Of a DNA stretch of 64,000 nt, positions 33,239 through 58,980 are shown piece by piece. This DNA is from Rhodanobacter sp. Its GTDB lineage: Bacteria; Pseudomonadota; Gammaproteobacteria; Xanthomonadales; Rhodanobacteraceae. Position numbers and translations under genes: made by a program. Location of the stretch: NCBI GenBank assembly GCA_004298045.1, contig SCRM01000010.1, positions 310,001 through 374,000 on the forward strand, given 5' to 3'. How positions within the stretch are numbered: position 1 is the stretch's first letter; each line of letters begins with the position of its first letter. The notes under the pieces were generated by a model. The model saw only the letters and a list, made by a program, of their open reading frames with translations, made no database searches and had not been told where the DNA came from.

Positions 33239-34825
33239 TTGACAGAGATGACGTCATCCGCCACCAGAGTTGCCCACTTGCTTCGCGAGGCTGGCAACGC
33301 ACTTGGCCACGGTCAGGCCAACCTTGCCGACCGTGGTCTGAGCCAAGTGCTGGCACTCGATCCAGGCAACGTGGAGGCCCAACGCCTTTTGGGCATTGCC
33401 GCACTGGTGCGCGGCGACTACCGACGCGCCATTGCCCATCTACGCAGCGTTGTCGCCGCACACCCTGACGATCCCTCCATCAACATGACCCTGGGCAATG
33501 CCCTGGTTGAGACTGGCGAAACCAAAGCTGGACTGGATAGCCTGCGGCGTGCCTGTGAGCTCGCCCCGGGGATGGCTGCTGCGTGGTACAACCTTGGCCG
33601 CGCGCTGCAAATGTCGGCTCAGGTGGAGCAGGCTCATGGTGCCCTGCAACGTGCCGTGGCAATCGAGCCGGGCTACGTCCGAGCACGCAACGCACTGGCT
33701 ACCGTACTGACCAACTTGGGTAATATCCCGGCCGCCGTGACGCTGCTGCGGGAAACCCTGCGCGATCATCCCGACAACGCCGACGCATGGTTTGCCCTGG
33801 GCAGTATCAAAACCGAACGCCTGACCCGCGGCGACACCGCACACCTGCAGCGACTGTTCCGCCAATCGGGTTCACCCGACGACACACGTATTCTGCTTGG
33901 CTTCACCCTGGCCAAGGCCTTGGAGGATCAATCCGATTACGCCGCAGCCTTCGACATGGTGCACGAAGCCAACGCGCTGAAACGCCAATCGCTGTACTGG
34001 AGCCGCAGCGAAGAACGGGCGCGTGTCGAGGCCATTTCGGAGGCATTCTCCACCCCGATCGCAAATCCACTGGACGCCGAGCTGGGGCGGGAAATCATCT
34101 TCGTGGTGAGTCTGCCGCGTTCCGGCTCCACTCTCGTCGAGCAAATCCTGGCCGCCCATCCGGAAGTGACCGGCGGAGATGAGTTCCAGGCGTTGCCCGA
34201 AATACTCGACGAGGAATCCGCGCGCCGCGGTACGCCCTTCCCGCAATGGGTGTCATCAACGACTGCGGACAACTGGCACCGAATGGGCACTGCGTATCTG
34301 GCCCGCGCACGACGTTGGCGGCCGCAACACGTGCGACTCACCGACAAGAACATCAGCAATTGGGCCTTCGTGGGGGCCGCGCTGGCCATGCTGCCCGGAG
34401 CCCGCGTGATCAACGCGCGCCGCGATCTCGTGGAAACCTGCTTCGCCAGCTACCGCCAGCTGTTCGCCACTGGCGTCCACTTCAGCTATGACCTGGACGA
34501 CATGGTGGATTACTGCGCCGGCTACGAGCGCCTGAGTGCCCTCTGGCAACGACAATTTCCACAGCGCTACTTCGACCACCACTACGAGTTGCTGCAGCAG
34601 GATCCAGAAGGACAGATCCATCGCGTACTGGATTTCTGCGCGCTGCCGTTCGATACCGCCTGCCTCTCCTTCCACCAGACGCCACGTACCGTACTCACCT
34701 TCAGCTCGGCCCAGGTACGCCAGCCGTTGCGTCTGGACACTGCACGCGCCGCGCTCTACGGCAACAGGCTTGATCCGCTGCGTGCCCGGCTCCATGCGGC
34801 CGGCCTGCTGTCAACCAGCCCCTGA
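33239..34825 (+). CDS. TPR-sulfotransferase family protein 1
   Basis: 528-residue cytosolic protein. The N-terminal ~240 residues are about six tetratricopeptide-like repeats (AAWYNLGRALQMSAQVEQAHGALQRAV, ADAWFALGSIK). The C-terminal half is a PAPS-dependent sulfotransferase: 5'-phosphosulfate loop SLPRSGSTLVEQIL (~290), 3'-phosphate site INARRDLVETCFASYRQLF, and a conserved end SSAQVRQPL. This architecture is akin to tyrosylprotein sulfotransferases (Sulfotransfer_3). The target is unknown. TTG start at 33239 has GGAGAG 5 bases ahead; ATG at 33248 is the alternative. Close paralogue of the protein at 40257. The convergent neighbour is a TonB receptor. Confidence 0.88.
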   Translation: MTEMTSSATRVAHLLREAGNALGHGQANLADRGLSQVLALDPGNVEAQRLLGIAALVRGDYRRAIAHLRSVVAAHPDDPSINMTLGNALVETGETKAGLDSLRRACELAPGMAAAWYNLGRALQMSAQVEQAHGALQRAVAIEPGYVRARNALATVLTNLGNIPAAVTLLRETLRDHPDNADAWFALGSIKTERLTRGDTAHLQRLFRQSGSPDDTRILLGFTLAKALEDQSDYAAAFDMVHEANALKRQSLYWSRSEERARVEAISEAFSTPIANPLDAELGREIIFVVSLPRSGSTLVEQILAAHPEVTGGDEFQALPEILDEESARRGTPFPQWVSSTTADNWHRMGTAYLARARRWRPQHVRLTDKNISNWAFVGAALAMLPGARVINARRDLVETCFASYRQLFATGVHFSYDLDDMVDYCAGYERLSALWQRQFPQRYFDHHYELLQQDPEGQIHRVLDFCALPFDTACLSFHQTPRTVLTFSSAQVRQPLRLDTARAALYGNRLDPLRARLHAAGLLSTSP

Positions 34826-35027
34826 GGCACGGGCCGCCGGCCCGTTACCGACGCGTCGCCCGGTTGTCCGAAGCCAAATCGGCCGACATCGGCTACGCCC
34901 TGCACAACCGCAAACGACACGCGCAGGCAGCACATCACAAAAACCGGGATCGGCGTCGATACCCCTGACTAGGTAGCGCCCCCGAAAGCGCCTGCCGGGG
35001 ATCGGCCCCGACCTCGTGCCCGTCCAC

Positions 35028-35056
35028 AAAAAAACCGCCGGCCCGAAGGCCGGCGG
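35028..35056 (-). terminator. intrinsic terminator of TonB-dependent receptor 1
   Basis: Minus-strand stem CCGCCGGCC / GGCCGGCGG with TTCG loop and seven T, 27 bases after the receptor stop. Confidence 0.93.
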
Positions 35057-35082
35057 CGCAAGTGCATCAGATGAATCCCGGA

Positions 35083-38000
35083 TCAGTAGTCGTACGTGAC
35101 CGAGAACCGCATCGTGCGCGGCGGGTTGGTGAACAGCGGCTGCTGGTAGTACGAGTCGACGAAGATCGTGTTGCTGGTCGGATCGAACGACGCCGGGTAC
35201 GACGGGCTGGTCTGGGTGGCACGCTGCTGGTTGAAGACGTTGAACACGTCGAAGTTGAAGCCCAGCTTGTGGTCGGCAAACGCCGGCTTGTAGTGCACGC
35301 CCATGTTCAGCAGCTCGGTCCACGGGGTGTGGCCATTCGACCCCGGGGTCACGCGCTGACCGGCGCACCAGTGGTAGTTGCCCGAACCATAGCCGTTGTA
35401 ACCGGTCGGATCCGCCGCACCACCCTGAGCGTACTCGTCCGGACCCTGCACCAGCGGGCCGTAGTAACCCAGGCACTCTTTCGGCACACCCGACTGCACC
35501 AAGAGCACCGCGGACACCATCCATTCCGGCGTGATCTGGTAGTCGCCACGCGCGCGGATCTGGTGCTTGCGCACGTTGATCAGGTCGCCGTACTGGCCGT
35601 CCATCAGCTGCCAGCTATCCCAGTCCTCGGTCTTGGACACGTCGCCCTGGCCGAAGTCCGAACGCACCTGGCCTTCGGTATTGCCGAAGCCACGCGAGAA
35701 GGTGTAGTCGATGCGGCCGAACCACTTGCCGTCGAACGGATGCTCCAAGTACATGTTCAAGGCGCCGTACTTGCGCACCGCACCACGATTGAAGCCCCAA
35801 TCCTTGGTCGTCATCGGCACCAGGTGGCTCTGGGTGCCGTCGTCGGACACCACCAGCATGGTGTTGGTGCGGCCCGGGTTGAACAGACGGCAGTACGACG
35901 CGCCATACAGCGAATCCCCGTACTGGCTCGGGTCAAGGCCCATCGTGGTCATCTTGGCGGCGATCTGGCCCGGCGAACATTCGTCGTCGATCGCAGCCTT
36001 GAGGTCACGCCACATGGCCTTGGCGCCATACACCCAGTTGTCGCCCAGCTTCTTGTCAAAGCCGACGATGAACTCATCGAGGTATTCCGGCTTCAGGTTG
36101 CGCGCGGCGACCTGAAGTGGATCCTTCGGTGCACCGGTTTCGCCGTCCGGCGAAGAAGTCGGCGCGAGCTGCGTCAGGCCCTGCGGCACGCCCGTGACCG
36201 GATCGATCGAGGTGTAGGAATACAGCGTCGTCAGGTAGGTCGAACGGTTGGCCGCACGCTCGGCCGCATTGCTCGGCAAGGCGAGGTAGTAACGGCCGAA
36301 GTTGCCGTACACCTTGAACGAGGAATCGCCGAACACGTCCCAGCTGGCACCCAGACGCGGCTCCCACTGGTTCTTCTCTTCCACGAACGGCTTGGACAAG
36401 TCGTTGTAGTTGGTGAAGTGGTCGTTGCGGACGCCGATGTTCAGCAACAGGTTGGGCAGCACCTGCCAGGTATCCTGCACGTACCACGCCTTCTGTGTCG
36501 TGGTCATGCTGGTCGCCCAGCCGATGTGGCGCTTCTGCACGATGTTGCCCGCAAAATAGCGCCAGTAGTAGTCAATCGACGGATTGAACGGGTTGGTGAA
36601 GCTCGGGCCCTGATCGGTCGCGCGGTAGGACATGTTGTCGATACCGACGGCGAGGTCATGGTCACCCAGGCGATAGTCCAAGTCCGCGCGCAGGCCGTGC
36701 GAGGCGTTCTTGGCGCCCGGCATGGTCCACGTGGTGTTGGTCTGGGCATTGTGCGGATGACTGCCATCCGGCAGGGTCGCGTTGCTGCCACGGGAAATGA
36801 ACGGCAGTGGGCTGTTGTTGCCGTAGTTTACCGGGTCCTGGAACCGGCCCTGGCCGTACACGATGCTCAGGGTCAGGGCATCGGTGATGTAGCTGGTGAA
36901 GTGGCCGATGTAGAACTGGGCGTTGTCCTTGGCGATGTCGTTGCGGCTGGAGAACGCGCCCTTCTTCAGGGTGTCGTAGTCGAACAAGTACGTGTTGCCG
37001 GCACCGTTGCTGGTGTTGTTGCGCAGCGCGGTCAGCTCGAGGATGTTGCTGTCGGTGATGTTCCAGTCCAACTTGCCGTAGAACTTCTTCTGGTCGTCCT
37101 TGTACTCCACGACCTTGCCGCTATCCACGTTCTGGACACTGGTGCCCTTGGTCTTGGTCTGCTCGCCAGCCAAGAAGATGAACAACTTGTCCTTGATCAG
37201 CGGGCCACCAATGTACGCAGAGTAGATGGTCTCCCACGACTTGTTGTCGTTGCGGTAGCGCTGCAGCGAACCCGGCTTGGTCGGATCGTCGATGGCGAAG
37301 TTGACCAGACTGCTCGACGGCGCAATGTTCGGGTGGCCGTAACGGTAGTTGGTCGGGTCGCTTTCCAGCGCACGCGGCTGCCACAGCACCTGGCCACCGA
37401 AGTGCCAGTCGTTGGTGCCGCGCTTGCCGACCTGGTTGATCACGCCGCCATCGGAGCGGCCGTACTTGGCGTCGTAGCCGCCAGTCAGGGTCTCTTGCTG
37501 TTCAATGGCACCATACGGCAGCTGGAAGCCGCCGAGGTTCTTGTACGGCTCGCCGACGTTGTAGCCGTTCACGTAGTACGAGTTCTCGGACACGCTGGAA
37601 CCGCCGAAGGACACCAGCGACTTCCCGGACGGGCCGGAGAAGAAGCTGCTGCCAGGCGTGGTATTCGGCGCCAGGAGGGCGATCGCCTCGGCACTGTGTG
37701 CCACCGGCAGGCGCTGCAGGTCGGCGGAGGTGATGACGGTGCTGGAGTTGACGCTGGTGACGTCAATCGCCGGCAACGCATTGGCGGTGACCGTGACCGA
37801 GGACAGCTCCTTGGCGTTGGAGCTGCTTGCCGCCGCGCCAGCGCTGCTGGTGAAGTCGACACCGGCAGCGCCGCCGCTGGATACGAAGGTGTTGTCACGC
37901 GAGCTGACCACCTTGCCGTTCTGCTTCAAGGTGATGGTGTAGGTACCCACCGGCAGGTGGTCAACGCGATAGCGGCCCGTGCTGTCGACTGGCACTTCGC

Positions 38001-38184
38001 GCGAAAAGCCGCCGGCATTGGTGACGACTACCGTCTCACCGGAGCCGGCTGGCGCCTGACCGAAAACGCTACCGACCGTGCTCTGTGCCAGTGCGATGCC
38101 GGTGAAGCTCAAGCCGAGCGCCACCGCCAGTGCGGTGCGGCGCCAATGGGTGCGGCCGACACCCGCGTGGTATGGCTGATTCAT
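35083..38184 (-). CDS. Oar-like TonB-dependent receptor 1
   Basis: 1033-residue outer-membrane receptor. Signal peptide (TALAVALGLSFTGIALA-QS), an Oar/carboxypeptidase-regulatory-like beta domain (STGRYRVDHLPVGTYTITLKQNGK, ~30-110), a TonB-box-like LSSVTVTA, then an Oar-type plug (NSYYVNGYNVGEPYKNLGGFQLPYGAIEQQETLTGGYDAKYGRSDGGVINQV) and a ~22-strand barrel ending RFSVTYDY with a terminal aromatic residue. The family takes up or exports ligands too large for porins; the substrate is unknown. ATG has GGGGAG 7 bases ahead; a 148-base leader separates it from the likely promoter. Flanked by sulfotransferase genes. Confidence 0.92.
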   Translation of the reverse strand: MNQPYHAGVGRTHWRRTALAVALGLSFTGIALAQSTVGSVFGQAPAGSGETVVVTNAGGFSREVPVDSTGRYRVDHLPVGTYTITLKQNGKVVSSRDNTFVSSGGAAGVDFTSSAGAAASSSNAKELSSVTVTANALPAIDVTSVNSSTVITSADLQRLPVAHSAEAIALLAPNTTPGSSFFSGPSGKSLVSFGGSSVSENSYYVNGYNVGEPYKNLGGFQLPYGAIEQQETLTGGYDAKYGRSDGGVINQVGKRGTNDWHFGGQVLWQPRALESDPTNYRYGHPNIAPSSSLVNFAIDDPTKPGSLQRYRNDNKSWETIYSAYIGGPLIKDKLFIFLAGEQTKTKGTSVQNVDSGKVVEYKDDQKKFYGKLDWNITDSNILELTALRNNTSNGAGNTYLFDYDTLKKGAFSSRNDIAKDNAQFYIGHFTSYITDALTLSIVYGQGRFQDPVNYGNNSPLPFISRGSNATLPDGSHPHNAQTNTTWTMPGAKNASHGLRADLDYRLGDHDLAVGIDNMSYRATDQGPSFTNPFNPSIDYYWRYFAGNIVQKRHIGWATSMTTTQKAWYVQDTWQVLPNLLLNIGVRNDHFTNYNDLSKPFVEEKNQWEPRLGASWDVFGDSSFKVYGNFGRYYLALPSNAAERAANRSTYLTTLYSYTSIDPVTGVPQGLTQLAPTSSPDGETGAPKDPLQVAARNLKPEYLDEFIVGFDKKLGDNWVYGAKAMWRDLKAAIDDECSPGQIAAKMTTMGLDPSQYGDSLYGASYCRLFNPGRTNTMLVVSDDGTQSHLVPMTTKDWGFNRGAVRKYGALNMYLEHPFDGKWFGRIDYTFSRGFGNTEGQVRSDFGQGDVSKTEDWDSWQLMDGQYGDLINVRKHQIRARGDYQITPEWMVSAVLLVQSGVPKECLGYYGPLVQGPDEYAQGGAADPTGYNGYGSGNYHWCAGQRVTPGSNGHTPWTELLNMGVHYKPAFADHKLGFNFDVFNVFNQQRATQTSPSYPASFDPTSNTIFVDSYYQQPLFTNPPRTMRFSVTYDY

Positions 38185-38512
38185 GTGGTATCTCCCCAGA
38201 TGATTGCAAATGACGTGGGCCGACGCCCGTGCCGACGTCACGCCAAACCGGCCATCCGCCGAAAACGTCCCGCCGCTCTTTGTTACAAGAACTCGCGAAC
38301 CGGGCTCGACTCTGATGGGCCTCGGCACAGAAAGTAAGCCCATGAAAATGCCGCCGTCAACAAAAACTTCATGAACGCCGCACACAAACGTTAACAATGC
38401 ACGTGCCCATCGGGGCGTCCTTTTGTGCTAGCCACGCGCAAAACACAGCGCGGGCAAGCGTCATCGCAGGCTCGAATTGAGCCGCGCACGCCGGCCGCAA
38501 TACCATCCAACA
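38185..38512. other. divergent region between receptor 1 and sulfotransferase 2
   Basis: 328 bases: the receptor's ribosome site and 5' leader, its candidate promoter (38332-38360), and the upstream region of sulfotransferase 2. The sulfotransferase frame is open from a TTG at 38477. Nothing else is seen. Confidence 0.5.
38332..38360 (-). promoter_or_regulatory. candidate sigma-70 promoter of TonB receptor 1
   Basis: Minus strand: TTGACG, 17-base spacer (containing ATTTTCA), TTACTT. The -35 is good and the -10 weak. Spacer and -35 match the promoter of receptor 2. Confidence 0.4.
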
Positions 38513-40084
38513 ATGACCTCGACACCGCTGCCCCCCTCTTCGGTTGCATCCTCGCCAGCGCAGGAAACCAGGACCGCGATCGCACGCCTCGAGCACGTCA
38601 TTGCGGGCACGCCGGATGATGCAGCGACGCTGATCGAACTGGCGAACTTGCGATTTGCGGCCGGGCAATTTCGGGCATCCGTGCCGTTGCTGTTGCGCGC
38701 GGCGCAGCACCTGCCGCGCAATGCGCCGTTGATCGTGGCGCTGGTGCAGCGCCTGATCGCGTGTGGCGAGGTCAACGCCGCACGCGCCTGCCTCGATCTG
38801 CTCGCCGGCGCACCACAGGCGCCGCCCGATCTGCTGGCGACCCAGGCGCATCTGCGCTTCTCGCTGGGCGAAATCCCCACCGCGCTGAACCTCATCGAGC
38901 ACGCCATCCGCGCCGGTGGCGACGCGCCGGGCATTGCCCACATGCACGCCATGCTGCTGCAGTTCAATGGCCGCATTGATGCCGCAACCGCCACCCTCGA
39001 CGCCAGCCTTGCCCGTTGGCCCAGCTTCGGCGATGCCGCAGTGATGCTGGTCAATCTGCACAAGCAGACGCCGACGGCAAACCGCCTTACCGCATGGCGC
39101 GAGCAACTGCAGCAGTTGCCCCCGGACGAGCAGCAACCGGATCGCGCGTTCGTGCGCGCCGAGTTCGAGTACGCCTGTTTCAAGACGCTGGACGACCTCG
39201 GCCAGCCGGAAGACGCCTGGCCGGCACTGGCGCGTTGCAATGCGCTGATGCACCAACTGAATCCCTACGACGCCGACGGCGAAGCCGCCGTGGTGCGCGC
39301 CATGCAGGCCTTGTCGCCTACTGCAGCGACGCATGCGGCGCCACCCGACAGCCCGTGCCCAATCTTCATCGTCGGCATGCCACGTTCCGGCACCACGCTG
39401 CTCGACCGCATCCTGTCCAGCCACCCGCAGGTGGAGTCGGCCGGGGAAATCATCGATTTCTGGCGCCAATTGCACTGGGCCGCCGACGTCACGCCGAACA
39501 AGACCCGCAGCCTGCTGCGCATCATCGAGCGCAGCGACGCTATCGACTACCACGAACTGGGCGCGCGCTACCTGCGGCAAACCCAATGGCGCGCCCACGG
39601 CAAGCGCTGGTACGTGGACAAGCTGCCGGCCAACATCCAGATGGTGGCATTCATCCGGCGGGCGTTGCCGCATGCGCCCATCCTGCACATGGTGCGCGAC
39701 CCGATGGACACCTGCTTTTCCAACTACAAGGCGATGTTCGGCAACGTATCGGCGTACAGCTACGACTTCGACGCGCTTGCCCACTACTACCGCGGCTATC
39801 AAGAGCTCGTGCGCCATTGGCATCACAGCTTGCCGGACACCATGTTCGACGTGGACTACGCCGCGCTGGTGCAAGACACCGCAGGCGTGGTGGCCAAGGT
39901 GTTGGCATGGTGCGGGTTGCCCCCCAGCGACGCGTGTCTGCGCCCCGACCGCAACCCGCAACCGGTCGCCACGCCGAGCAGCGCGCAGGTGCGCGAGCCG
40001 ATCCATCGCCGGGGCGTGGATCAATGGCGCCGTTACGCCGCCCAGCTGGCGCCCTTGCAGGCAGCACTGAACGTCGAGCGTTGA
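38513..40084 (+). CDS. TPR-sulfotransferase family protein 2
   Basis: 523-residue cytosolic protein: degenerate TPR-like helices in the first ~250 residues (AGQFRASVPLLLRAAQHLPRNAPLIVALVQRLIACG) and a C-terminal sulfotransferase with FIVGMPRSGTTLLDRILSSHP (5' phosphosulfate loop, ~286) and LHMVRDPMDTCFSNYKAMF (3'-phosphate site). It is more distant from the other two: MPRSGTT rather than SLPRSGST or SMPRSGST, and DFWRQLHWAADV in its middle. ATG at 38513 is assumed; TTG at 38477 is an alternative with a weak site. Divergent from receptor 1 and 172 bases before sulfotransferase 3. Confidence 0.87.
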   Translation: MTSTPLPPSSVASSPAQETRTAIARLEHVIAGTPDDAATLIELANLRFAAGQFRASVPLLLRAAQHLPRNAPLIVALVQRLIACGEVNAARACLDLLAGAPQAPPDLLATQAHLRFSLGEIPTALNLIEHAIRAGGDAPGIAHMHAMLLQFNGRIDAATATLDASLARWPSFGDAAVMLVNLHKQTPTANRLTAWREQLQQLPPDEQQPDRAFVRAEFEYACFKTLDDLGQPEDAWPALARCNALMHQLNPYDADGEAAVVRAMQALSPTAATHAAPPDSPCPIFIVGMPRSGTTLLDRILSSHPQVESAGEIIDFWRQLHWAADVTPNKTRSLLRIIERSDAIDYHELGARYLRQTQWRAHGKRWYVDKLPANIQMVAFIRRALPHAPILHMVRDPMDTCFSNYKAMFGNVSAYSYDFDALAHYYRGYQELVRHWHHSLPDTMFDVDYAALVQDTAGVVAKVLAWCGLPPSDACLRPDRNPQPVATPSSAQVREPIHRRGVDQWRRYAAQLAPLQAALNVER

Positions 40085-40256
40085 GTTGGCGCTGAGCCAA
40101 GGCCAGAGTCAATGCCTCCGACCGGACGTCACGTCCAAAGAGCCTGCGGGAAATCAATGCTGGCCCTGCGCCGCGTGACTCCACGGCGCGCCGCGCGGAG
40201 TCTGCACGGTGTAGTTTTCGATCATGGAAATTGCGTACTGACTGCGGTTCGTCGTC

Positions 40257-41801
40257 ATGCCCCCCTCTCCCGCCCTCCTTGCCGAAGCGGCGCAGGCACT
40301 CAACCGCCGTCAGCCCGAAGCGGCGATGCCTCTGCTCGAACGTTTCCTGGCGGGTAGCCCCGGCGCACCGGATGCCCTGTTCATGCTTGGCCTTGCACAC
40401 GTGATGCGTGGCACGAGCAGCAACGCCATCCCGTTGCTGCGCCAAGTCGTGGCGCAGCAACCACAGCACGCCGACGCCCACATGTACCTCGGCTGCGCAC
40501 TGCAGGAGATCGGCGGCTTCGACGAGGCGCTGCGCCATTTGGGCGCGGCCTGCGAGCTGACGCCGCAGCGGCCGGCCGTCTGGTACAACCTGGGCAAGGC
40601 GCTGAAGGAACAAGCCCGGCTCGATGACGCAGCCGGGGCTTTCGAGCGTGCGCTCGCACAGGACGCGAACCACGCGCTGGCCCGCATCGGCCGGGCCGAC
40701 GTCGCCACCATGCGTGGCGATATCGAGCGCGCGGTGGCCGACTACCGGCACGTGCTCCAGCTGCAACCCGACCGCGCCGAGGCTTGGCACGGGCTGGCCA
40801 ACCTCAAGACCCGAGCACTGGACGCGACCGATGCCGAACAGATCCGGCACGCCCTGCAGCGCCCCGGCATCCCGCCGGATGCGCGGGTGCTGCTGGGCTT
40901 CAGTCTGTATCGCGCGCTCGAGGATCAACACGATTACGCCGACGCCTTCGCGGCGCTCCGCCAGGCCAACGACGACCAGCGGCGGCTGGTGACATGGGAT
41001 GCCGCCCGCGAGCATGCGGCGATCGATCGCATCATGGCGGCCTTTCGCGGCGTGCAGCCCGCCCCGGTGGAGCCGGAGCTGGGCCGCGAGGTCATTTTCA
41101 TCGTCAGCATGCCGCGCTCGGGCTCGACGCTGGTGGAACACATCCTTGCCTCACACCCCGAGGTCGAAGGCGCCAACGAGATCCCCGATCTGGCCCAGGT
41201 CATCGCGGACGAATCGCATCGTCGCGGCCAGCCGTTTCCGGGTTGGGCCGGCGCGGCCACTCCCGCCGACTGGCATCGGCTGGGCCGCGACTACCTGGCC
41301 CGCACCACGCGCTGGCGCGAGCAGCGTCCGCGTTTCACCGACAAGAACGTCGCCAACTGGCCGCTGCTGGGCGCCGCACGCCGCATGCTGCCCGGCGCAA
41401 AAATCATCCACTGCCACCGCGACCCGGTGGAGACCTGCTTTTCCTGCTACCGGCAATTGTTCCGGCACGGCCTGCACTACAGCTACAACCTGGACGAGAT
41501 GGCCGAGCGCTACCGCGACTACGAACGGCTCAGCACGTTCTGGCTGGCACGCCATCCGCAGCACATCCTCGATTTTCCGTACGAAACCCTGGTGCAGGAA
41601 CCCGAAACCCAGATCCGCCGGCTGCTCGCTTTCTGCGAACTGCCGTTCGATGCCGCTTGCCTCACACCCCACCGCACCCGGCGCGAGGTGCTCAGTACGG
41701 CCAGCGCGGCGCAGGTGCGGCAGCCGATCCACGCGGACACCGCTCGCAGCGTGCCGTATCAGGAATGGCTGCACCCCCTTCGCGAGAAATTGGCGCGCTG
41801 A
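40257..41801 (+). CDS. TPR-sulfotransferase family protein 3
   Basis: 514-residue paralogue of sulfotransferase 1. About six TPR units (RPAVWYNLGKALKEQARLDDAAGAFERAL is typical) precede the PAPS-dependent domain: VSMPRSGSTLVEHILASHPEVEGANEIPDL (~282), FTDKNVANWPLLGAARRMLPGAKIIHCHRDPVETCF and SAAQVRQPIHADTARS at the end, the last shared with protein 1. No signal peptide. A 13-pair hairpin follows the stop, then the convergent receptor 2. Confidence 0.88.
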   Translation: MPPSPALLAEAAQALNRRQPEAAMPLLERFLAGSPGAPDALFMLGLAHVMRGTSSNAIPLLRQVVAQQPQHADAHMYLGCALQEIGGFDEALRHLGAACELTPQRPAVWYNLGKALKEQARLDDAAGAFERALAQDANHALARIGRADVATMRGDIERAVADYRHVLQLQPDRAEAWHGLANLKTRALDATDAEQIRHALQRPGIPPDARVLLGFSLYRALEDQHDYADAFAALRQANDDQRRLVTWDAAREHAAIDRIMAAFRGVQPAPVEPELGREVIFIVSMPRSGSTLVEHILASHPEVEGANEIPDLAQVIADESHRRGQPFPGWAGAATPADWHRLGRDYLARTTRWREQRPRFTDKNVANWPLLGAARRMLPGAKIIHCHRDPVETCFSCYRQLFRHGLHYSYNLDEMAERYRDYERLSTFWLARHPQHILDFPYETLVQEPETQIRRLLAFCELPFDAACLTPHRTRREVLSTASAAQVRQPIHADTARSVPYQEWLHPLREKLAR

Positions 41802-41806
41802 AAACG

Positions 41807-41836
41807 ATCAAGCCGCCGGATGACCGGCGGCTTGAT
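41807..41836. terminator. bidirectional terminator between sulfotransferase 3 and receptor 2
   Basis: Perfect 13-pair stem ATCAAGCCGCCGG / CCGGCGGCTTGAT with ATGA loop. TTTCC follows on the plus strand and CGTTTTC on the minus, so it may end both convergent genes. Confidence 0.82.
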
Positions 41837-41904
41837 TTCCTGAAACCTTCCCGAACCTACGCCACCCGTCTTGCCGGTGACGTGGAATGGGGGAGGCAAG
41901 TGGC

Positions 41905-44900
41905 TCAGAAGTCGTACTTGACGTTGAATTCCATGTAACGCGGGGCCTCGGTGGAGGCAGCGGTGTGGTACACGGGGTTATACAGGAACGTACCCGAGTT
42001 GTTGCCACTGGCGCCGCCGCCATTACCGATCGCGTACTGGGTGTAGTACAGCGTCGCATTCTGCTCGTTGAACACGTTGTGCACTTCCGCCTGCAGGGTA
42101 AGGTGCTTGTTTGCCCAGTCTGGCGTGTAGGTCACGCTCAAGTTGAGCTGGTGGGTCCACGGGGTGTGGCCGCTGGTGCCCGGAGGCGACCCTGCACCAC
42201 CATAACCCACGCCGGTGGCCGACATGGCGCTCGGTACGCCACCGCAGAAGTGCTGATACGGGCCGTTGTACGCATCCGCAAAGATGGTGTTGCCGAAACC
42301 GCTCAGGCAGACATTCGGCGCCCCCGACTGCATGATGAAGGTGCCACTGAGCGTCCACTCCGGCGTAACGGCATACGAGCCGAAGGCCTTGATGGTGTGA
42401 CGATGACTATTGGCCTGCTCACCGTTGGCGTAGGCCATGAGGTCCGGGAAATCCCACTGCGCCGTGGTCGAGCCGGAGAACCCGCCATTCCGCTGGTTGG
42501 TGATCTGCCCGATCGGCGTGTCAGTCGGGCCTTCGGTGCTGCCGTACGACTTGGAGAACAGGTAGTCGATCTTGCCGAACCACTTGCCGTCCCAGGTGTG
42601 CTGCAGATAGGAATCCAGGGCGTAATACCTGCGCGACGGCTTCGGGAACCCGATGAACGGCTGGCCCTGCGTGTAAACACCATTGCCCGTGTTCGGATTC
42701 CACGTGATCGGGCCGCCGGGCTGCGGTATGTAGTTGGTCTTGCCGGGATTGACCAAGCCTGCGATCGCATTGCCGTCGGCGCAACCACTGTATCCCTCGA
42801 CGCAGACATCGGTGTCGTCAACGAGGTTGCCTGCCTTTTCGAAGGTTGCCTGCTCGCCCCACACCAGACCGGTATCGCCGAGCATCTTCTGGAAGCCCAA
42901 CACATACTCGTCCTGATACTGCGGCTTGAGGTTGGTCGAGGCGTAATCCTTGATGTTGCCGGGGACGCCGTTCTCGCCGTCAGACGAGAAGTACCCCGCC
43001 GGCGTACCTGGCGCCTGGTTGGTGATGGGAAGCGCGGCCAACCCGGTCGGGATGCCGGTCGGCGTCATGCCGCTATAGGTGTAGACGATGGTGCCGTTGA
43101 TCGAGCCAAACGCCGAGTTGCGTGCCGCCAGGCCCGCCGGCAGCGCCAAGTAGTAACGCCCCGCGTTACCGAAGACCTTGAACGTGCTGTCACCAAACAC
43201 ATCCCAGCTGAAGCCCAGACGCGGCGCCCATTGCGGGCTGGTTTCCTTCACGTAGGCAACGCCACCCGGGCCGGTGTTCTTGAACTGGTCATTGCGCAGG
43301 CCAAGGTCAAGCAACAGGTTGGGGGTAACCTGCCATTTGTCTTCCACGTATTGCGCCTTCTGGCGCGCCGCAATCGAAACGTTCTGGCTTACCAGGCTCT
43401 CGACGACGTAGTTGCCATAGCCCGGGTTGCCAGCGAAGGGCGAGTTGGAGAACTCGGACGGGATGCCCTGCACGTAGTTGTAAGAGCCGCCGCCAAGGAT
43501 CGACGTGCCATCGTCGTCGTCGCGGTACTGCACGTTGTCGATACCGAACTTGAGATCGTGGTCGGCCGTAACCCGCCAGTCGAAGTCGAGGCGCATGTTG
43601 GCGGTCTTCGTGGTGTGGCCAGGGTTGCCGATGGTGGTGTCGACAAGGTTCGGGACCGAGACGCCCGCCGGTACGGCCACACCCGGACCGAAGGTCACGG
43701 GCGCCGCGGCCGCACCACTCAAGCTGCTGTAGTACTGCCCGCTCATCAAGCCGTACATCGCTTCGAGCGTAAGGTTGTCAGTGATGTAGGAGGTGTACTT
43801 CAGGATGCCGATCTTGAACGTATCCTTGGTCACCACACCCGGGCCATACAGGTTTGCAACCTTCTGGTTCGTGTAATCGTAGTTGTAGAAATTGTTGCTG
43901 AGCTCCTCGTCCTTGGTCTGGACGCCGGTGAGCTCCAACACGTTGTTGTCGTTGATGTTCCAGTCCAGCTTGCCGTACATCTTCGGACTCTTGTTGCTGG
44001 TCGACTCGAAGAAACCCTGCGGTGACGTTATGCCGTAGTTTTGCAACCCGGCCTTGTCGCTGTTGTGCTGCCACTCGGCCGTAATGAAGAAGAACAGCTT
44101 GTCCTTGATCAGCGGGCCACTGACGTAGGCGTCATATACCGCCTCCCAGTTGCTGTTCTGCTTCTTGCCCGCCTGGATCTTGCGATAGCCAGGCGCATAA
44201 GCCGTGGTGCCCTGGCTGGGCGCGAGGAATGGCGTGCCAGTGTTGTCCACGGCACCCACCGGCGTCCGCGGATTGTTGTAGTACACGTTATCGAAGTTGC
44301 CCTGCGCCCACGACGGGCGGTACGACACGTACACGCCAGCATGGAAGTCATTGCTGCCGCGCTGACCGATCTGACTGATGACGCCACCGGTCGAACGGCC
44401 GAATTCGGGGCCGTAACCGGAAGTGATGGTCTGCTGCTCGGCAATGGCAAAGAACGGCAACGCAACACCGCCGGCACCACCGATGGGATCAGTCGTATTG
44501 AAACCGTTGAGATAATAGGCATTTTCCACGACGCTGTTGCCGCCCATGGAAACCAGTGGCGTACCCGTCGGACCGGTGCCGAGGGTGGAGCCGCCCATGT
44601 TCACGCCCGGCGCCAGCAAGGCGATCGCCTCAGCGCTGTGGGCCAGCGGCAGGGTCTTCAACTGCTGTGCCGTGATGACGGATGTCTGGCGCGTGGACGA
44701 CACGTCGATCGCCGGCAGCGAGTTGGCGGTGACCGTCACGCTGGACAGGTTTTCGACGTTCTTGCCCCCGGTAGTGGTGGCGAACGGCACCTGCGTACCG
44801 CCGCTCACGCTCACCGTGACGTTGTTGCGCGTGGCAACTGCATTGCCCTTCTGCATCAACGACACGGTGTATTGACCTACCGGCAACTGGTTGGCGCCGT

Positions 44901-45117
44901 AACGACCATCGCTGCCAACCGCCACCTCGCGGGTCAGGCCGGTCTGGTTGTTGACGATGCGCACCGTCTCGCCGGCGGTGGCCGGCGCGGTGCCGAACAC
45001 CGAACCGGTGGTGGCTTGGCCATAGGCCAAACCGGTGAAACCCAGACCCACGGCCAGTGCGGCGGCCAGGGCGTTGCGGCGGTAATGGTTATCCCGCGTT
45101 GAATGCTTGCTCATCAT
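41905..45117 (-). CDS. Oar-like TonB-dependent receptor 2
   Basis: 1070-residue outer-membrane receptor, paralogue of receptor 1. Signal peptide (LAAALAVGLGFTGLAYG-QA), carboxypeptidase-regulatory-like domain (GRYGANQLPVGQYTVSLMQKG), LSSVTVTANSLPAIDVSS, plug (NAYYLNGFNTTDPIGGAGGVALPFFAIAEQQTITSGYGPEFGRSTGGVISQI) and a barrel ending MEFNVKYDF. The N-terminal 200 residues align well with receptor 1, including AHSAEAIALLAP. One barrel region has YRDDDDGTS, a Tyr with four acidic neighbours. Start chosen at the first of two adjacent ATGs behind GGGGAG. Substrate unknown. Confidence 0.92.
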   Translation of the reverse strand: MMSKHSTRDNHYRRNALAAALAVGLGFTGLAYGQATTGSVFGTAPATAGETVRIVNNQTGLTREVAVGSDGRYGANQLPVGQYTVSLMQKGNAVATRNNVTVSVSGGTQVPFATTTGGKNVENLSSVTVTANSLPAIDVSSTRQTSVITAQQLKTLPLAHSAEAIALLAPGVNMGGSTLGTGPTGTPLVSMGGNSVVENAYYLNGFNTTDPIGGAGGVALPFFAIAEQQTITSGYGPEFGRSTGGVISQIGQRGSNDFHAGVYVSYRPSWAQGNFDNVYYNNPRTPVGAVDNTGTPFLAPSQGTTAYAPGYRKIQAGKKQNSNWEAVYDAYVSGPLIKDKLFFFITAEWQHNSDKAGLQNYGITSPQGFFESTSNKSPKMYGKLDWNINDNNVLELTGVQTKDEELSNNFYNYDYTNQKVANLYGPGVVTKDTFKIGILKYTSYITDNLTLEAMYGLMSGQYYSSLSGAAAAPVTFGPGVAVPAGVSVPNLVDTTIGNPGHTTKTANMRLDFDWRVTADHDLKFGIDNVQYRDDDDGTSILGGGSYNYVQGIPSEFSNSPFAGNPGYGNYVVESLVSQNVSIAARQKAQYVEDKWQVTPNLLLDLGLRNDQFKNTGPGGVAYVKETSPQWAPRLGFSWDVFGDSTFKVFGNAGRYYLALPAGLAARNSAFGSINGTIVYTYSGMTPTGIPTGLAALPITNQAPGTPAGYFSSDGENGVPGNIKDYASTNLKPQYQDEYVLGFQKMLGDTGLVWGEQATFEKAGNLVDDTDVCVEGYSGCADGNAIAGLVNPGKTNYIPQPGGPITWNPNTGNGVYTQGQPFIGFPKPSRRYYALDSYLQHTWDGKWFGKIDYLFSKSYGSTEGPTDTPIGQITNQRNGGFSGSTTAQWDFPDLMAYANGEQANSHRHTIKAFGSYAVTPEWTLSGTFIMQSGAPNVCLSGFGNTIFADAYNGPYQHFCGGVPSAMSATGVGYGGAGSPPGTSGHTPWTHQLNLSVTYTPDWANKHLTLQAEVHNVFNEQNATLYYTQYAIGNGGGASGNNSGTFLYNPVYHTAASTEAPRYMEFNVKYDF

Positions 45118-45530: not shown

Positions 45531-46322
45531 TTACTCGCCCTCGTCGATATCCCCGAACCGCAAGTGCTTGACGCTGCGACCATTGCGGCGCACGAGCTTG
45601 AGGGCTTCGATGCCGATGCGGACGTGGGCATCGACAAATTTTTCGGTCACCTTGCGATCGCTTGCCGTGGTCTTCACCCCCTCGGGAATCATCGGCTGGT
45701 CGGACACCAAGAGCAGCGCGCCGGAAGGAATGCCGTTGGCAAAGCCGGCGGAGAACAAGGTGGCGGTCTCCATGTCCACCGCCATGCAGCGCGTGCGGCG
45801 CAGGTAGGCCTTGAACTTCTCGTCGTGCTCCCACACCCGGCGGTTGGTGGTGTAGACGGTGCCGGTCCAGTAGTCGTGCCCCAGGTCACGGATCATGGTG
45901 GAGACCGCGCGCTGCAGCTGGAACGCCGGCAGCGCCGGCACCTCGGGCGGCAGGTAGTCGTTCGACGTGCCTTCGCCGCGGATCGCGGCGATCGGCAGGA
46001 TGAGGTCGCCGATCCGGTTCTTTTTCTTGAGCCCGCCGCATTTGCCCAGAAACAGCGCAGCCTTGGGCGCGATGGCACTCAAGAGATCCATCGCCGTGGC
46101 CGCGTTGGGACTGCCCATGCCGAAGTTGATGAGAGTGATGCCATCGGCGGTGGCGTTGGGCATCGGGTACTCGCGGCCACGCACCTCCACCCCGTGCCAC
46201 TCGGCAAACAGATCCACGTAGTGGGCAAAGTTGGTCAGGAGGATGTAGTCCCCGAACGCTTCCAGCGGGGTGTCGGTGTAGCGCGGCAGCCAGTTGGTGA
46301 CGATTTCCTGCTTGTCTTTCAT
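45531..46322 (-). CDS. amn: AMP nucleosidase (short form)
   Basis: Hydrolyses AMP to adenine and ribose 5-phosphate. The 263-residue protein is the short form with only the catalytic phosphorylase-like domain, lacking the N-terminal regulatory domain of E. coli Amn. Conserved parts: ITLINFGMGSPNAATAMDLLSAI, GKCGGLK, AVDMETATLFSAGFANGIPSGALLLVSDQPM (catalytic Asp in VSDQP). The ATG giving MKDKQEIV was chosen; codons upstream are not conserved. Divergent from degV. Confidence 0.88.
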   Translation of the reverse strand: MKDKQEIVTNWLPRYTDTPLEAFGDYILLTNFAHYVDLFAEWHGVEVRGREYPMPNATADGITLINFGMGSPNAATAMDLLSAIAPKAALFLGKCGGLKKKNRIGDLILPIAAIRGEGTSNDYLPPEVPALPAFQLQRAVSTMIRDLGHDYWTGTVYTTNRRVWEHDEKFKAYLRRTRCMAVDMETATLFSAGFANGIPSGALLLVSDQPMIPEGVKTTASDRKVTEKFVDAHVRIGIEALKLVRRNGRSVKHLRFGDIDEGE

Positions 46323-46486: not shown

Positions 46487-47431
46487 ATGCGCATGGGAGT
46501 CACCATGGACGCCGCCTGCGACCTGCCGCAGGCGTTCATTGCCGAGCACGGCATCACCGTGTTGCCGATCGCGGTCAAGATCGATAGCGACACGTTCATG
46601 GACAACCGTGACCCGGCCGAGATCCAGCGCTTCATCAACCGCCGGCTGGGCAACCGCAGCCACGCGGCGGAAACCGAGCCGACCTCGGCCGAGGATGTGC
46701 AGAAGCTGTTTCTGGACAAGCTGGTGCTCGAACGGGACTGCGTGTTCTGCCTGACGATGACCGCCACGCGCAGCCCGATCCACGACAACGTGGTGCGCGC
46801 GAGTTTCGCGATCCTGCGCGAGTACCGCGAGCGGCGCGGCGCGGGCGGCAGTACCGCACCGTTCCTGATGCGCGTGATCGACACCCGCAACATCTTTGCG
46901 GGCGCCGCGCCGGCCATCTGGGAAGCGGCGCGCCTGATCGCCAGCGATCAGCCGCCGGCCACGATCCGCGAGCGCCTGAACAATGTGGCCAACCACAGTT
47001 ACGGCTACCTGGTGCCACGCGACCTGTACTATCTGCGCGCCCGCGCCAAAAAGAAGAACGACCGCAGCGTGGGCCTGTTCAGCGCGATGCTGGGCTCGGC
47101 GCTGGACATCAAGCCGATCCTGCGCTGTTTCCAGGGCGAAACCGGGCCGGTGGGCAAGGCGCGCGGCTTCGAGCAAGGCGCGCAAATGCTGTTCGACTAC
47201 GCCGCCCGCCGCGTCCGCGCCGGCCTGCTGGTGCCGATGGTGTGCGTGAGCTACGGCGGCGACCTCGCCGTACTCGAACACCTGCCCGGCTACGACGGCC
47301 TGCGCACCGCCTGCGCCGACACCGGCGTGACGCTGCTGGAAGCGGCGATGAGCATCACCGGCATGGTCAACGTCGGCGAAGGCGCGGTATCGCTCGGGCT
47401 GGCTGCCGAGGAGCACGTGGCGGATTTCTGA
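46487..47431 (+). CDS. DegV family fatty-acid-binding protein
   Basis: 314-residue DegV-type protein. DegV/FakB proteins hold a fatty acid for a kinase (FakA). Typical marks: MGVTMDAACDLPQAFIAEHGITVLPIAV at the N-terminus, then LTMTATRSPIHDNV (the Thr/Ser near ~100 that binds the carboxylate) and VIDTRNIFAGAA. No fakA lies nearby and Xanthomonadales are not known to use FakAB, so the role is uncertain. Start has a strong GGGGGGAGGA site. Confidence 0.87.
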   Translation: MRMGVTMDAACDLPQAFIAEHGITVLPIAVKIDSDTFMDNRDPAEIQRFINRRLGNRSHAAETEPTSAEDVQKLFLDKLVLERDCVFCLTMTATRSPIHDNVVRASFAILREYRERRGAGGSTAPFLMRVIDTRNIFAGAAPAIWEAARLIASDQPPATIRERLNNVANHSYGYLVPRDLYYLRARAKKKNDRSVGLFSAMLGSALDIKPILRCFQGETGPVGKARGFEQGAQMLFDYAARRVRAGLLVPMVCVSYGGDLAVLEHLPGYDGLRTACADTGVTLLEAAMSITGMVNVGEGAVSLGLAAEEHVADF

Positions 47432-58136: not shown

Positions 58137-58299
58137 GGCGGATCGAAGTTCCGCTGTATTTGATAAACCGAATAGTACAGAAAACACCCTTGCCTGTCCA
58201 TGGCTGCGCATCTCATGCGCCCTCTACAATGCCCGCAACACAGGCGGCGCGCCATGTACCGGGTCAATGCGCCGCAGCCATGCCACGGGGAGACGCTAC

Positions 58300-58980
58300 G
58301 TGATTGTCTGCATACCTAACGTGTTGAGCGCCGAGGAACTGGGGGCGATCAACGCCGAAATCCGCTCGGCCAACTACGTCGATGGTTCCGCCACCGCCGG
58401 CTGGTCGGCAAAGGACGTCAAGCGCAACCAGCAGCTGGCGCTGGACTCGCCGCATTACGCACAACTGGCGGACATCGTGCGCAAGGCATTCCAGCGCAAC
58501 GGCATGCTGCAGGCGGCGTTGCTGCCCGCCGCCACCACCCAGGTGCTGTTCAACCGGTATGCCGGCGGCCAGACCTACGGCCCGCATGTGGATGCGCCGA
58601 TCATGGGCGGCATCGGCAGCGCGGTGCGCACCGACATCGCGATCACCATCTTCCTGCACGAGCCGCAGAGCTACACCGGCGGCGAGCTGGTGACCCACGC
58701 CAGCGGCGGCATGGAGTACCAGTTCAAGCTGGATGCCGGCGCCGCGATCGCCTACCCGGCCAATACCCTGCACCACGTCAACCCGGTCACCCAAGGCGTG
58801 CGCGACGCGGCCATCATCTGGGTGCAAAGCATGGTGCGTGACCCGGCCCGGCGCGAGCTGCTGTGGGATCTCGAATGCGCCAAGCGCGACATCTACGGCC
58901 ACGAAGGCAAGAGCACCGCGTTCGACGCCGTCAGCCGCTCGCACGCGAACCTCTTGCGGATGTGGGCCGAGGTGGCATGA
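58300..58980 (+). CDS. Fe(II)/2-oxoglutarate-dependent dioxygenase, PiuC/YbiX family
   Basis: 226-residue PKHD-type hydroxylase. Iron ligands are H-x-D in GPHVDAPIMGG (~96-98) and His in NTLHHVNPVTQG (~157); 2-oxoglutarate Arg in VRDAAIIWVQSM. PiuC proteins accompany TonB siderophore receptors such as PiuA, but none is adjacent here. The GTG start has GGGGAG 7 bases ahead and gives the family N-terminus VIVCIPNVLSAEE. Confidence 0.92.
   Translation: MIVCIPNVLSAEELGAINAEIRSANYVDGSATAGWSAKDVKRNQQLALDSPHYAQLADIVRKAFQRNGMLQAALLPAATTQVLFNRYAGGQTYGPHVDAPIMGGIGSAVRTDIAITIFLHEPQSYTGGELVTHASGGMEYQFKLDAGAAIAYPANTLHHVNPVTQGVRDAAIIWVQSMVRDPARRELLWDLECAKRDIYGHEGKSTAFDAVSRSHANLLRMWAEVA

Follow-up and report, generated by a model that had tools for sequence, protein, structure and literature searches.

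Enzymes of the tyrosylprotein sulfotransferase (TPST) type are, according to a 2022 review that names some Xanthomonas species as makers, absent from most bacteria (PMC9372746). The animal forms TPST1 and TPST2 carry an N-terminal membrane anchor and reside in the Golgi lumen, and the RaxST-RaxX-RaxAB system of Xanthomonas has a bacterial TPST-like enzyme, there with a RaxX-like peptide gene. Here, we describe an island of five genes in a 64,000-nucleotide stretch of the genome of Rhodanobacter sp. (assembly GCA_004298045.1, 3.26 Mb, our G000; contig SCRM01000010.1, our C17, positions 310001-374000; hereafter the window), in which three enzymes combining tetratricopeptide repeats (TPRs) with a Sulfotransfer_3 domain are interleaved with two large TonB-dependent receptors. 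We consider it probable (approx. 0.6) that these enzymes are cytosolic protein-tyrosine sulfotransferases, each kind serving a partner receptor and acting before its export. Sulfotransferases of the TPST type, scaffolds made of TPRs and receptors resembling Oar were already known singly; what is new, as far as the literature was searched, is a dedicated, co-moving pair of sulfotransferase and TonB receptor with a predicted site. Indeed, a title-level search, in which subscription journals were thinly covered, returned no work that we recognised on sulfated TonB receptors or on sulfotransferase-receptor pairing. The five genes, numbered from the first letter of the window, are the following.

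33239-34825, forward strand: ST1, TPR plus Sulfotransfer_3; 528 residues from a TTG start, with an ATG at codon 4; enzyme clade I/III.
35083-38184, reverse strand: receptor A, Oar-like TonB-dependent receptor; 1033 residues from ATG, with a signal-peptide-like start; receptor clade A.
38477-40084, forward strand: ST2, TPR plus Sulfotransfer_3; 535 residues from a TTG start, with an ATG at codon 13 (38513); enzyme clade II.
40257-41801, forward strand: ST3, TPR plus Sulfotransfer_3; 514 residues; enzyme clade I/III; convergent with receptor B.
41905-45117, reverse strand: receptor B, Oar-like TonB-dependent receptor; 1070 residues from ATG; receptor clade B.

The order and types of these genes are those of the initial annotation, as are the presence of Sulfotransfer_3 and TPRs in all three enzymes (Pfam) and the two convergent pairs (ST1 and receptor A, 258 bp apart; ST3 and receptor B, 104 bp apart); ST2 is divergent from receptor A, its phylogenetic partner. 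Gene calling by codon-pair score places the starts of the two receptors at 38184 and 45117. Plug, TonB barrel and OMP_b-brl_4 score above their cut-offs in both receptors (OMP_b-brl_4 at 83.3 and 81.3 bits, cut-off 30), with CarboxypepD_reg just under its own (30.0 and 28.6 bits versus 32.3), and the beta strands in a structural model of receptor A agree with a plug-and-barrel TonB receptor. The label 'Oar' is that of the initial annotation, joined to a domain pattern that we take to be typical of such receptors. By name and domain pattern, they are of the same type as Oar of Myxococcus xanthus, which has a reported role in protein export and for which the abstract of that report mentions no sulfotransferase partner (PMC6434023).

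As for the enzymes, a TPR superhelix ahead of a transferase domain is common to them and to O-GlcNAc transferase (OGT) and SPINDLY, which are among the best TPR matches. The likeness to OGT is confined to the TPR part, as the C-terminal domain is a glycosyltransferase there and Sulfotransfer_3 here. This domain has a TPST fold: the top seven Protein Data Bank sequences in a profile search and the top seven rows in a structure search are all TPSTs. Identity to animal TPST1 and TPST2 is 16-21%, and an activity resembling that of animal protein-tyrosine sulfotransferases is a prediction from sequence and model. Of the catalytic residues, equated by alignment, Arg and Glu are each found in 131 of 132 enzymes and Lys in all 132; ST1, ST2 and ST3 have all three (R287, E308 and K363 in ST3, where S483 is probably catalytic too). 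Residues S483, Q486, V487 and R488 of the SAQVR segment are invariant across 50 enzyme sequences, S483 being aligned, with low certainty, with the STDQV of tick TPST. Neither the sequences nor the model of ST3, in which TPR helices begin at residue 5, display the N-terminal membrane anchor, so the enzymes were not classed as animal-type TPSTs; given a TPR superhelix at that end instead, they are taken as cytosolic.

Compared with RaxST-RaxX-RaxAB, the partner in the island is a large TonB receptor. No RaxAB-type exporter occurs among the five island genes, where it was looked for, and none of the 2181 small open reading frames (20-130 residues) near enzymes belongs to a family found in more than four loci, which extends the report in the initial annotation that the island lacks a small peptide gene. 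Homologues of RaxST are described in PMC6637879. Among the named records close to ST3 are those of Rhodanobacter sp. C06, at 68% identity, and Dyella flava, at 52%. TPR-fused enzymes with a TPST-type domain are common: in a sample of 249 genomes from the phylum, 106 match the TPR-enzyme profile, a match of profile and not of activity. APS kinase is required for the synthesis of 3'-phosphoadenosine 5'-phosphosulfate (PAPS). As such a kinase is matched outside the island, elsewhere in the genome, the host is probably able to supply PAPS.

The first line of evidence for a partnership is adjacency. All but one of the 59 Rhodanobacteraceae genomes searched (58) have a match to Sulfotransfer_3; at least 148 places outside the Rhodanobacter genome were listed and merged to 128 regions, of which 88 were fetched and 40 left out of the family set (some of the latter were taken later into the receptor set). 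Once three overlapping loci had been dropped (L056, L062 and L078, versus L055, L061 and L077) and L007 and the island added, 87 family loci were compared with a wider set, the best 80 of 562 confirmed GTDB loci (some members also Rhodanobacteraceae), and with 12 control regions whose positions were picked blind. Gene calling was scripted, and TonB receptors were recognised by models from three clusters, with representatives verified against Pfam; these models may miss some receptors. Of the 87 family loci, 51 have a receptor directly beside the run of enzymes, as do 31 of the 80 wider ones. By position, receptors make up 54/173 first, 12/172 second and 7/172 third neighbours in the family, falling to 7/551 at positions 4-8; the wider loci give 33/147 versus 2/365 for the first position and positions 4-8, and the controls a single receptor in 206 genes. 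Adjacency, which the initial annotation had proposed to examine genome-wide, is thus strongly enriched in the family and beyond (54/173 versus 7/551), so that the lack of enrichment named there as a refutation was not observed. In the Rhodanobacter genome itself, Plug is matched 32 times and Sulfotransfer_3 six times, five of them over the cut-off: the three island enzymes, a TPR form on contig C6 and a short form on C7. As the C6 gene is directly followed by a TonB receptor, all four TPR forms of this genome adjoin one.

The second line is that particular enzymes go with particular receptors, as the initial annotation had suggested a comparison of phylogenies might reveal. In a tree of 69 Oar-like receptors (from 40 regions of listed matches and from enzyme loci, those under 900 residues being excluded), 33 rows have an enzyme no more than 6 kb away; this label requires eight changes, versus 23 when shuffled, and 28 of the 33 fall in two separate clades:

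— Clade A holds 17 rows, 13 of them linked (including L110, beside a broken gene), and contains the receptor at 35083.

— Clade B is linked in 15 of 15 rows and contains the receptor at 41905.

The tree of 132 enzymes mirrors this division, with a clade of 20 around ST2 (17 beside Oar-like receptors), a clade of 22 around ST1 and ST3 (18 beside such receptors) and a third clade of 12 holding all 11 enzymes labelled with another receptor family, TB4. Direct pairs join clade II to receptor A 11 times and clade I/III to receptor B 14 times, with four more having an unassigned member. The three mismatches (two I/III-A, one II-B) all lie in the island or in L117, from the same genus; with these composite islands left out, 10 and 13 matched pairs remain and none mismatched. 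Since the genomes are related, the pairs do not represent independent events. Similarly, among 30 relatives of receptor B listed at 56% identity or more in 233 genomes, 25 were fetched, and an ST3-like gene lies directly 3' and convergent in 23 of these (1.5-kb flanks), the others showing one remnant and one contig end. In the remnant case (L284, genome G459), only the C-terminal part of the enzyme persists, ahead of a second tandem receptor, and the receptor match is itself cut short; the 25 fetched relatives therefore contain no usable natural loss of the enzyme for receptor B.

For receptor A, by contrast, natural losses of the enzyme point to a candidate site.

35890-35982, reverse strand: loop E735-C765 of receptor A, with Cys 736 and Cys 765; predicted extracellular, within the inter-strand segment 730-804.
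35905-35907, reverse strand: codon of Tyr760, candidate sulfation site.
35893-35895, reverse strand: codon of Tyr764, candidate sulfation site.

These tyrosines were first noticed in 17 clade A receptors, where they are the later two Tyr of a motif, Y..S[LI]YG..YC, that lies in a loop bounded by Cys on either side; in this discovery set only G040, G041 and G022 were without both. No ST2-type match exists in G040 and none over 37% identity in G041, and in G022 the ST2-type gene beside receptor A (L110:8488-9915) is broken, with pieces in several frames. A search of 233 genomes with receptor A listed 46 relatives at 58% identity or more, of which 43 were used, 26 of them new; the unused ones are G018 (gene call too short; its loop, read separately, keeps both tyrosines), G374:C282:10166 (internal stop) and G372:C14:172068. 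All 26 new genomes have an ST2-type gene at 51% identity or more (outside the tree, and in some away from the receptor), and all 26 receptors keep at least one of Tyr760 and Tyr764. In a scan of 1004 columns across the 43 receptors, these two positions tied first, each being Tyr in 38 of 40 receptors with the enzyme and in none of three without (Fisher 8e-4 each, uncorrected), and one or both are kept in 40 of 40 with the enzyme. No further column was lost in all three enzyme-less rows and in five or fewer of the other 40. On a tree built without the loop, the three rows stand in three separate places, motif and enzyme requiring three changes each, and among 3000 random triplets of rows none displayed two such Tyr columns and nine displayed one. 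The loop of G040 is of full length with both tyrosines replaced (N, S), and those of G022 and G041 are shorter and alike. In the model of receptor A (mean predicted local distance difference test 82.4, predicted template modelling score 0.81), a long segment, 730-804, lies between strands and is predicted to be extracellular by counting strands back from the C-terminal one, the turns at 713/717, 815/821, 883/888 and 965/974 being taken as periplasmic in a manual reading of the listed strands; Cys736 and Cys765 may form a disulfide there.

The initial annotation had left the substrate between the receptor, its ligand and a co-secreted peptide. Of these, we favour the receptor, since Tyr at two positions of receptor A goes with the presence of an intact ST2-type gene; the peptide is disfavoured, as no family of small reading frames near the enzymes extends beyond four loci. 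In the mechanism that we propose, the OGT-like TPR superhelix would grip the unfolded receptor chain in the cytosol and the TPST-like domain would transfer sulfate from PAPS to Tyr in one surface loop (ST2 to Tyr760 and Tyr764 in the case of receptor A); Sec export and insertion into the membrane would follow, leaving the sulfotyrosines facing outwards, where they would shape what the receptor binds. Receptor B presumably has a sulfation site of its own. The proposed logic is that of tyrosine-sulfated chemokine receptors such as CCR5, in which sulfotyrosines on the outer face tune binding (PMC9372746); those receptors differ in having an unrelated fold and in being sulfated in the Golgi at the N-terminus. 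If this holds, bacteria decorate receptors much as animal cells do, and uptake, recognition by phages or bacteriocins and outer-membrane signalling could all hinge on sulfation. Standard proteomics misses such a modification, as sulfotyrosine is hard to distinguish from phosphotyrosine, a difficulty also named in the title of PMC10696596. The case is directly testable, as it specifies two tyrosines and a single enzyme and as genomes exist that have lost this enzyme naturally.

The strongest competing explanation puts the sulfate on what the receptor binds or carries, be it a small molecule or a protein exported with the help of an Oar-like receptor; the loop tyrosines would contact this sulfated partner and so disappear along with the enzyme. 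Oxygenases stand beside some enzymes, as in the tailoring of products, the enzyme of L010 also adjoins an M20 peptidase, and some other neighbours resemble, as we take it, exported hydrolases. Moreover, export of the PopC protease reportedly requires Oar in Myxococcus (PMC6434023). The loci nevertheless have no conserved small reading frame, no biosynthetic cluster was recognised among the recurrent neighbours scanned (a minority of neighbour clusters), the catalytic domain is nearest to enzymes acting on protein tyrosine, and the best-tracking columns are Tyr and not basic residues. We regard this explanation as unlikely, if the most serious of those considered; direct modification of the receptor is preferred chiefly on the indirect ground that tyrosines, rather than basic residues, covary with a TPST-like enzyme.

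Several observations weigh against sulfation of the receptor. The enzyme has no recognised TonB receptor directly beside it in 36 of the 87 family loci and in 49 of the 80 wider ones, and the fourth TPR-sulfotransferase of the Rhodanobacter genome (C6; L007:8305-9972) has lost catalytic residues (the P-loop Arg is replaced by C, the catalytic Glu by T, and further active-site residues are gone), the sole such case in 132, yet adjoins a receptor. Only three enzyme-less A receptors were sampled, and since the replaced loops of two of them (L110 and L115) are similar, the losses of the tyrosines may amount to two independent events. A sign test on independent pairs gives 3/3 with p = 0.25, three pairs being unable to reach significance, and 21 of 3000 random triplets show at least two columns of any residue. 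The tyrosines were spotted in 17 of the same 43 rows that were scanned, and the 26 new rows test retention and not loss, because all have the enzyme. Furthermore, no Tyr column specific to linked receptors is common to clades A and B, linkage to an enzyme brings no higher share of Tyr (6.0 and 6.1% versus 6.6%) and acid-flanked Tyr is in no clear excess among linked receptors.

Two related checks concern the same residues. An enrichment of Tyr among clade-specific columns was tried and rejected (4/67 in A, where three receptors away from an enzyme were included, 0/24 in B and 1/29 in a free control clade). In the wider loci L150, L151, L152 and L198, the loop pattern could be drawn from four of seven Oar-like receptors, none with the motif of receptor A.

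The origin of the island can be read from two sites. The first is marked by two genes that lie beyond receptor B.

45531-46322, reverse strand: conserved neighbour gene of 263 residues, labelled AMN (a tentative name), which marks the syntenic site in other genomes.
46487-47431, forward strand: DegV family gene, second anchor of the syntenic site.

The same site in L050 carries an ST1-like gene, an ST3-like gene and receptor B but has neither receptor A nor ST2; relative to it, the island has the receptor A-ST2 pair added between ST1 and ST3. L117 has an ST1-like gene, receptor A, an ST2-like gene and a B-clade receptor. A second site, near genes that we take to be hexR and zwf, carries A-II pairs in other genera and none in the Rhodanobacter genome or in G022; in G054, it holds a B-ST3 pair 82% and 70% identical to that of the island, and in G041, a B-like pair. 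Because the contents of the second site differ among genomes in this way, matched pairs appear to change places between the two sites, the direction of the moves being inferred. When plasmids were searched by tblastn for receptor A, the 12 records returned all fell short of 60% identity.

The initial annotation had viewed the island as a duplicated module, and two receptors plus three enzymes of the same families in one place do look like tandem duplication of one enzyme-receptor unit. This view was rejected on both trees and is the least probable of the explanations considered here. Indeed, the receptors belong to separate clades (starred in the tree), each common to other genera and each with its own enzyme clade; ST2, and not ST1, partners receptor A and stands outside the ST1/ST3 clade; and L050 has ST1-like, ST3-like and receptor B genes without the A-ST2 pair. 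Insertion of an A-ST2 pair into a B island explains the gene order better. The likenesses that had suggested duplication are also looser than described. ST1 and ST3 are paralogues, and 'close' was generous for an identity of 48% (BLAST; ST2 is 29-32% identical to either); their shared SAQVR segment is a family-wide motif and no sign of recent duplication. The receptors are likewise paralogues (39% identity), with weakly similar promoters: the likeness is one 20-column stretch in 300 nucleotides, matched by 22 of 500 shuffles.

The two sites bear equally on the idea that enzyme and receptor are linked by descent only, as genomic neighbours without joint function. Several sites are syntenic across genera, so that neighbours could be inherited together, and yet matched pairs occur at two different sites, and more than one receptor family repeatedly accompanies an enzyme clade of its own; we consider this reading very improbable.

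Other enzymes are found near TPR-sulfotransferases. A family of Asp/Asn hydroxylases (426-450 residues) occurs in 12 loci, always within two genes of the enzyme: L153:6415-7743, the sole member scanned, has TPRs and PF05118 (Pfam), and relatives are found in L016, L062, L072, L085, L096, L112, L149, L154, L162, L215 and L219. Small PF05118 proteins occur in 12 wider loci (11 within three genes of the enzyme), and a 194-residue 2-oxoglutarate (2OG)-Fe(II) oxygenase (PF13640; L009:2491-3075 and relatives) in five family loci and one wider locus. One PF05118 neighbour, in L153, matches the lipid hydroxylase models OlsC and LpxO, far under their cut-offs, and 44 of the 132 tree enzymes have no recognised receptor neighbour; both would suit some other surface target (a lipid, a polysaccharide or several exported proteins), with adjacency to receptors reflecting a common role in the envelope. 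The pairing of enzyme and receptor clades and the covariation of Tyr would be unexpected on such grounds, which makes this improbable.

With the receptor as substrate, the hydroxylase and oxygenase neighbours fit a larger modification system. In many proteobacteria, TPR-guided Tyr sulfotransferases, in places together with Asp/Asn or Fe/2OG hydroxylases (one fused to a sulfotransferase), might install sulfotyrosine and perhaps hydroxylated residues on surface loops of specific TonB receptors before export, enzyme and receptor moving between loci as matched pairs; we hold this broader picture tentatively, at slightly less than even odds. A protein of about 308 residues (L168:5799-6737 and 13 other wider loci) lies within three genes of the enzyme in 13 of 14 cases; two members were scanned, and neither matches anything in Pfam or NCBIfam. 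The five-gene island contains none of the hydroxylase, oxygenase or 308-residue families, and the gene at 58267-58980 of the window, presumably a 2OG-Fe(II) dioxygenase, has no established tie to it.

Three further observations concern these neighbourhoods. The genomes in which the 308-residue protein accompanies TPR-sulfotransferases and TonB receptors are mostly those of marine-looking Gammaproteobacteria. L154:12815-14665 fuses a PF05118 Asp/Asn hydroxylase domain to a sulfotransferase domain, in an island with other sulfotransferases. Finally, L037:14329-15384 and its relatives, exported-looking proteins with a match under the cut-off to the XOO1806 family, lie near TB1-type receptors and sulfotransferases.

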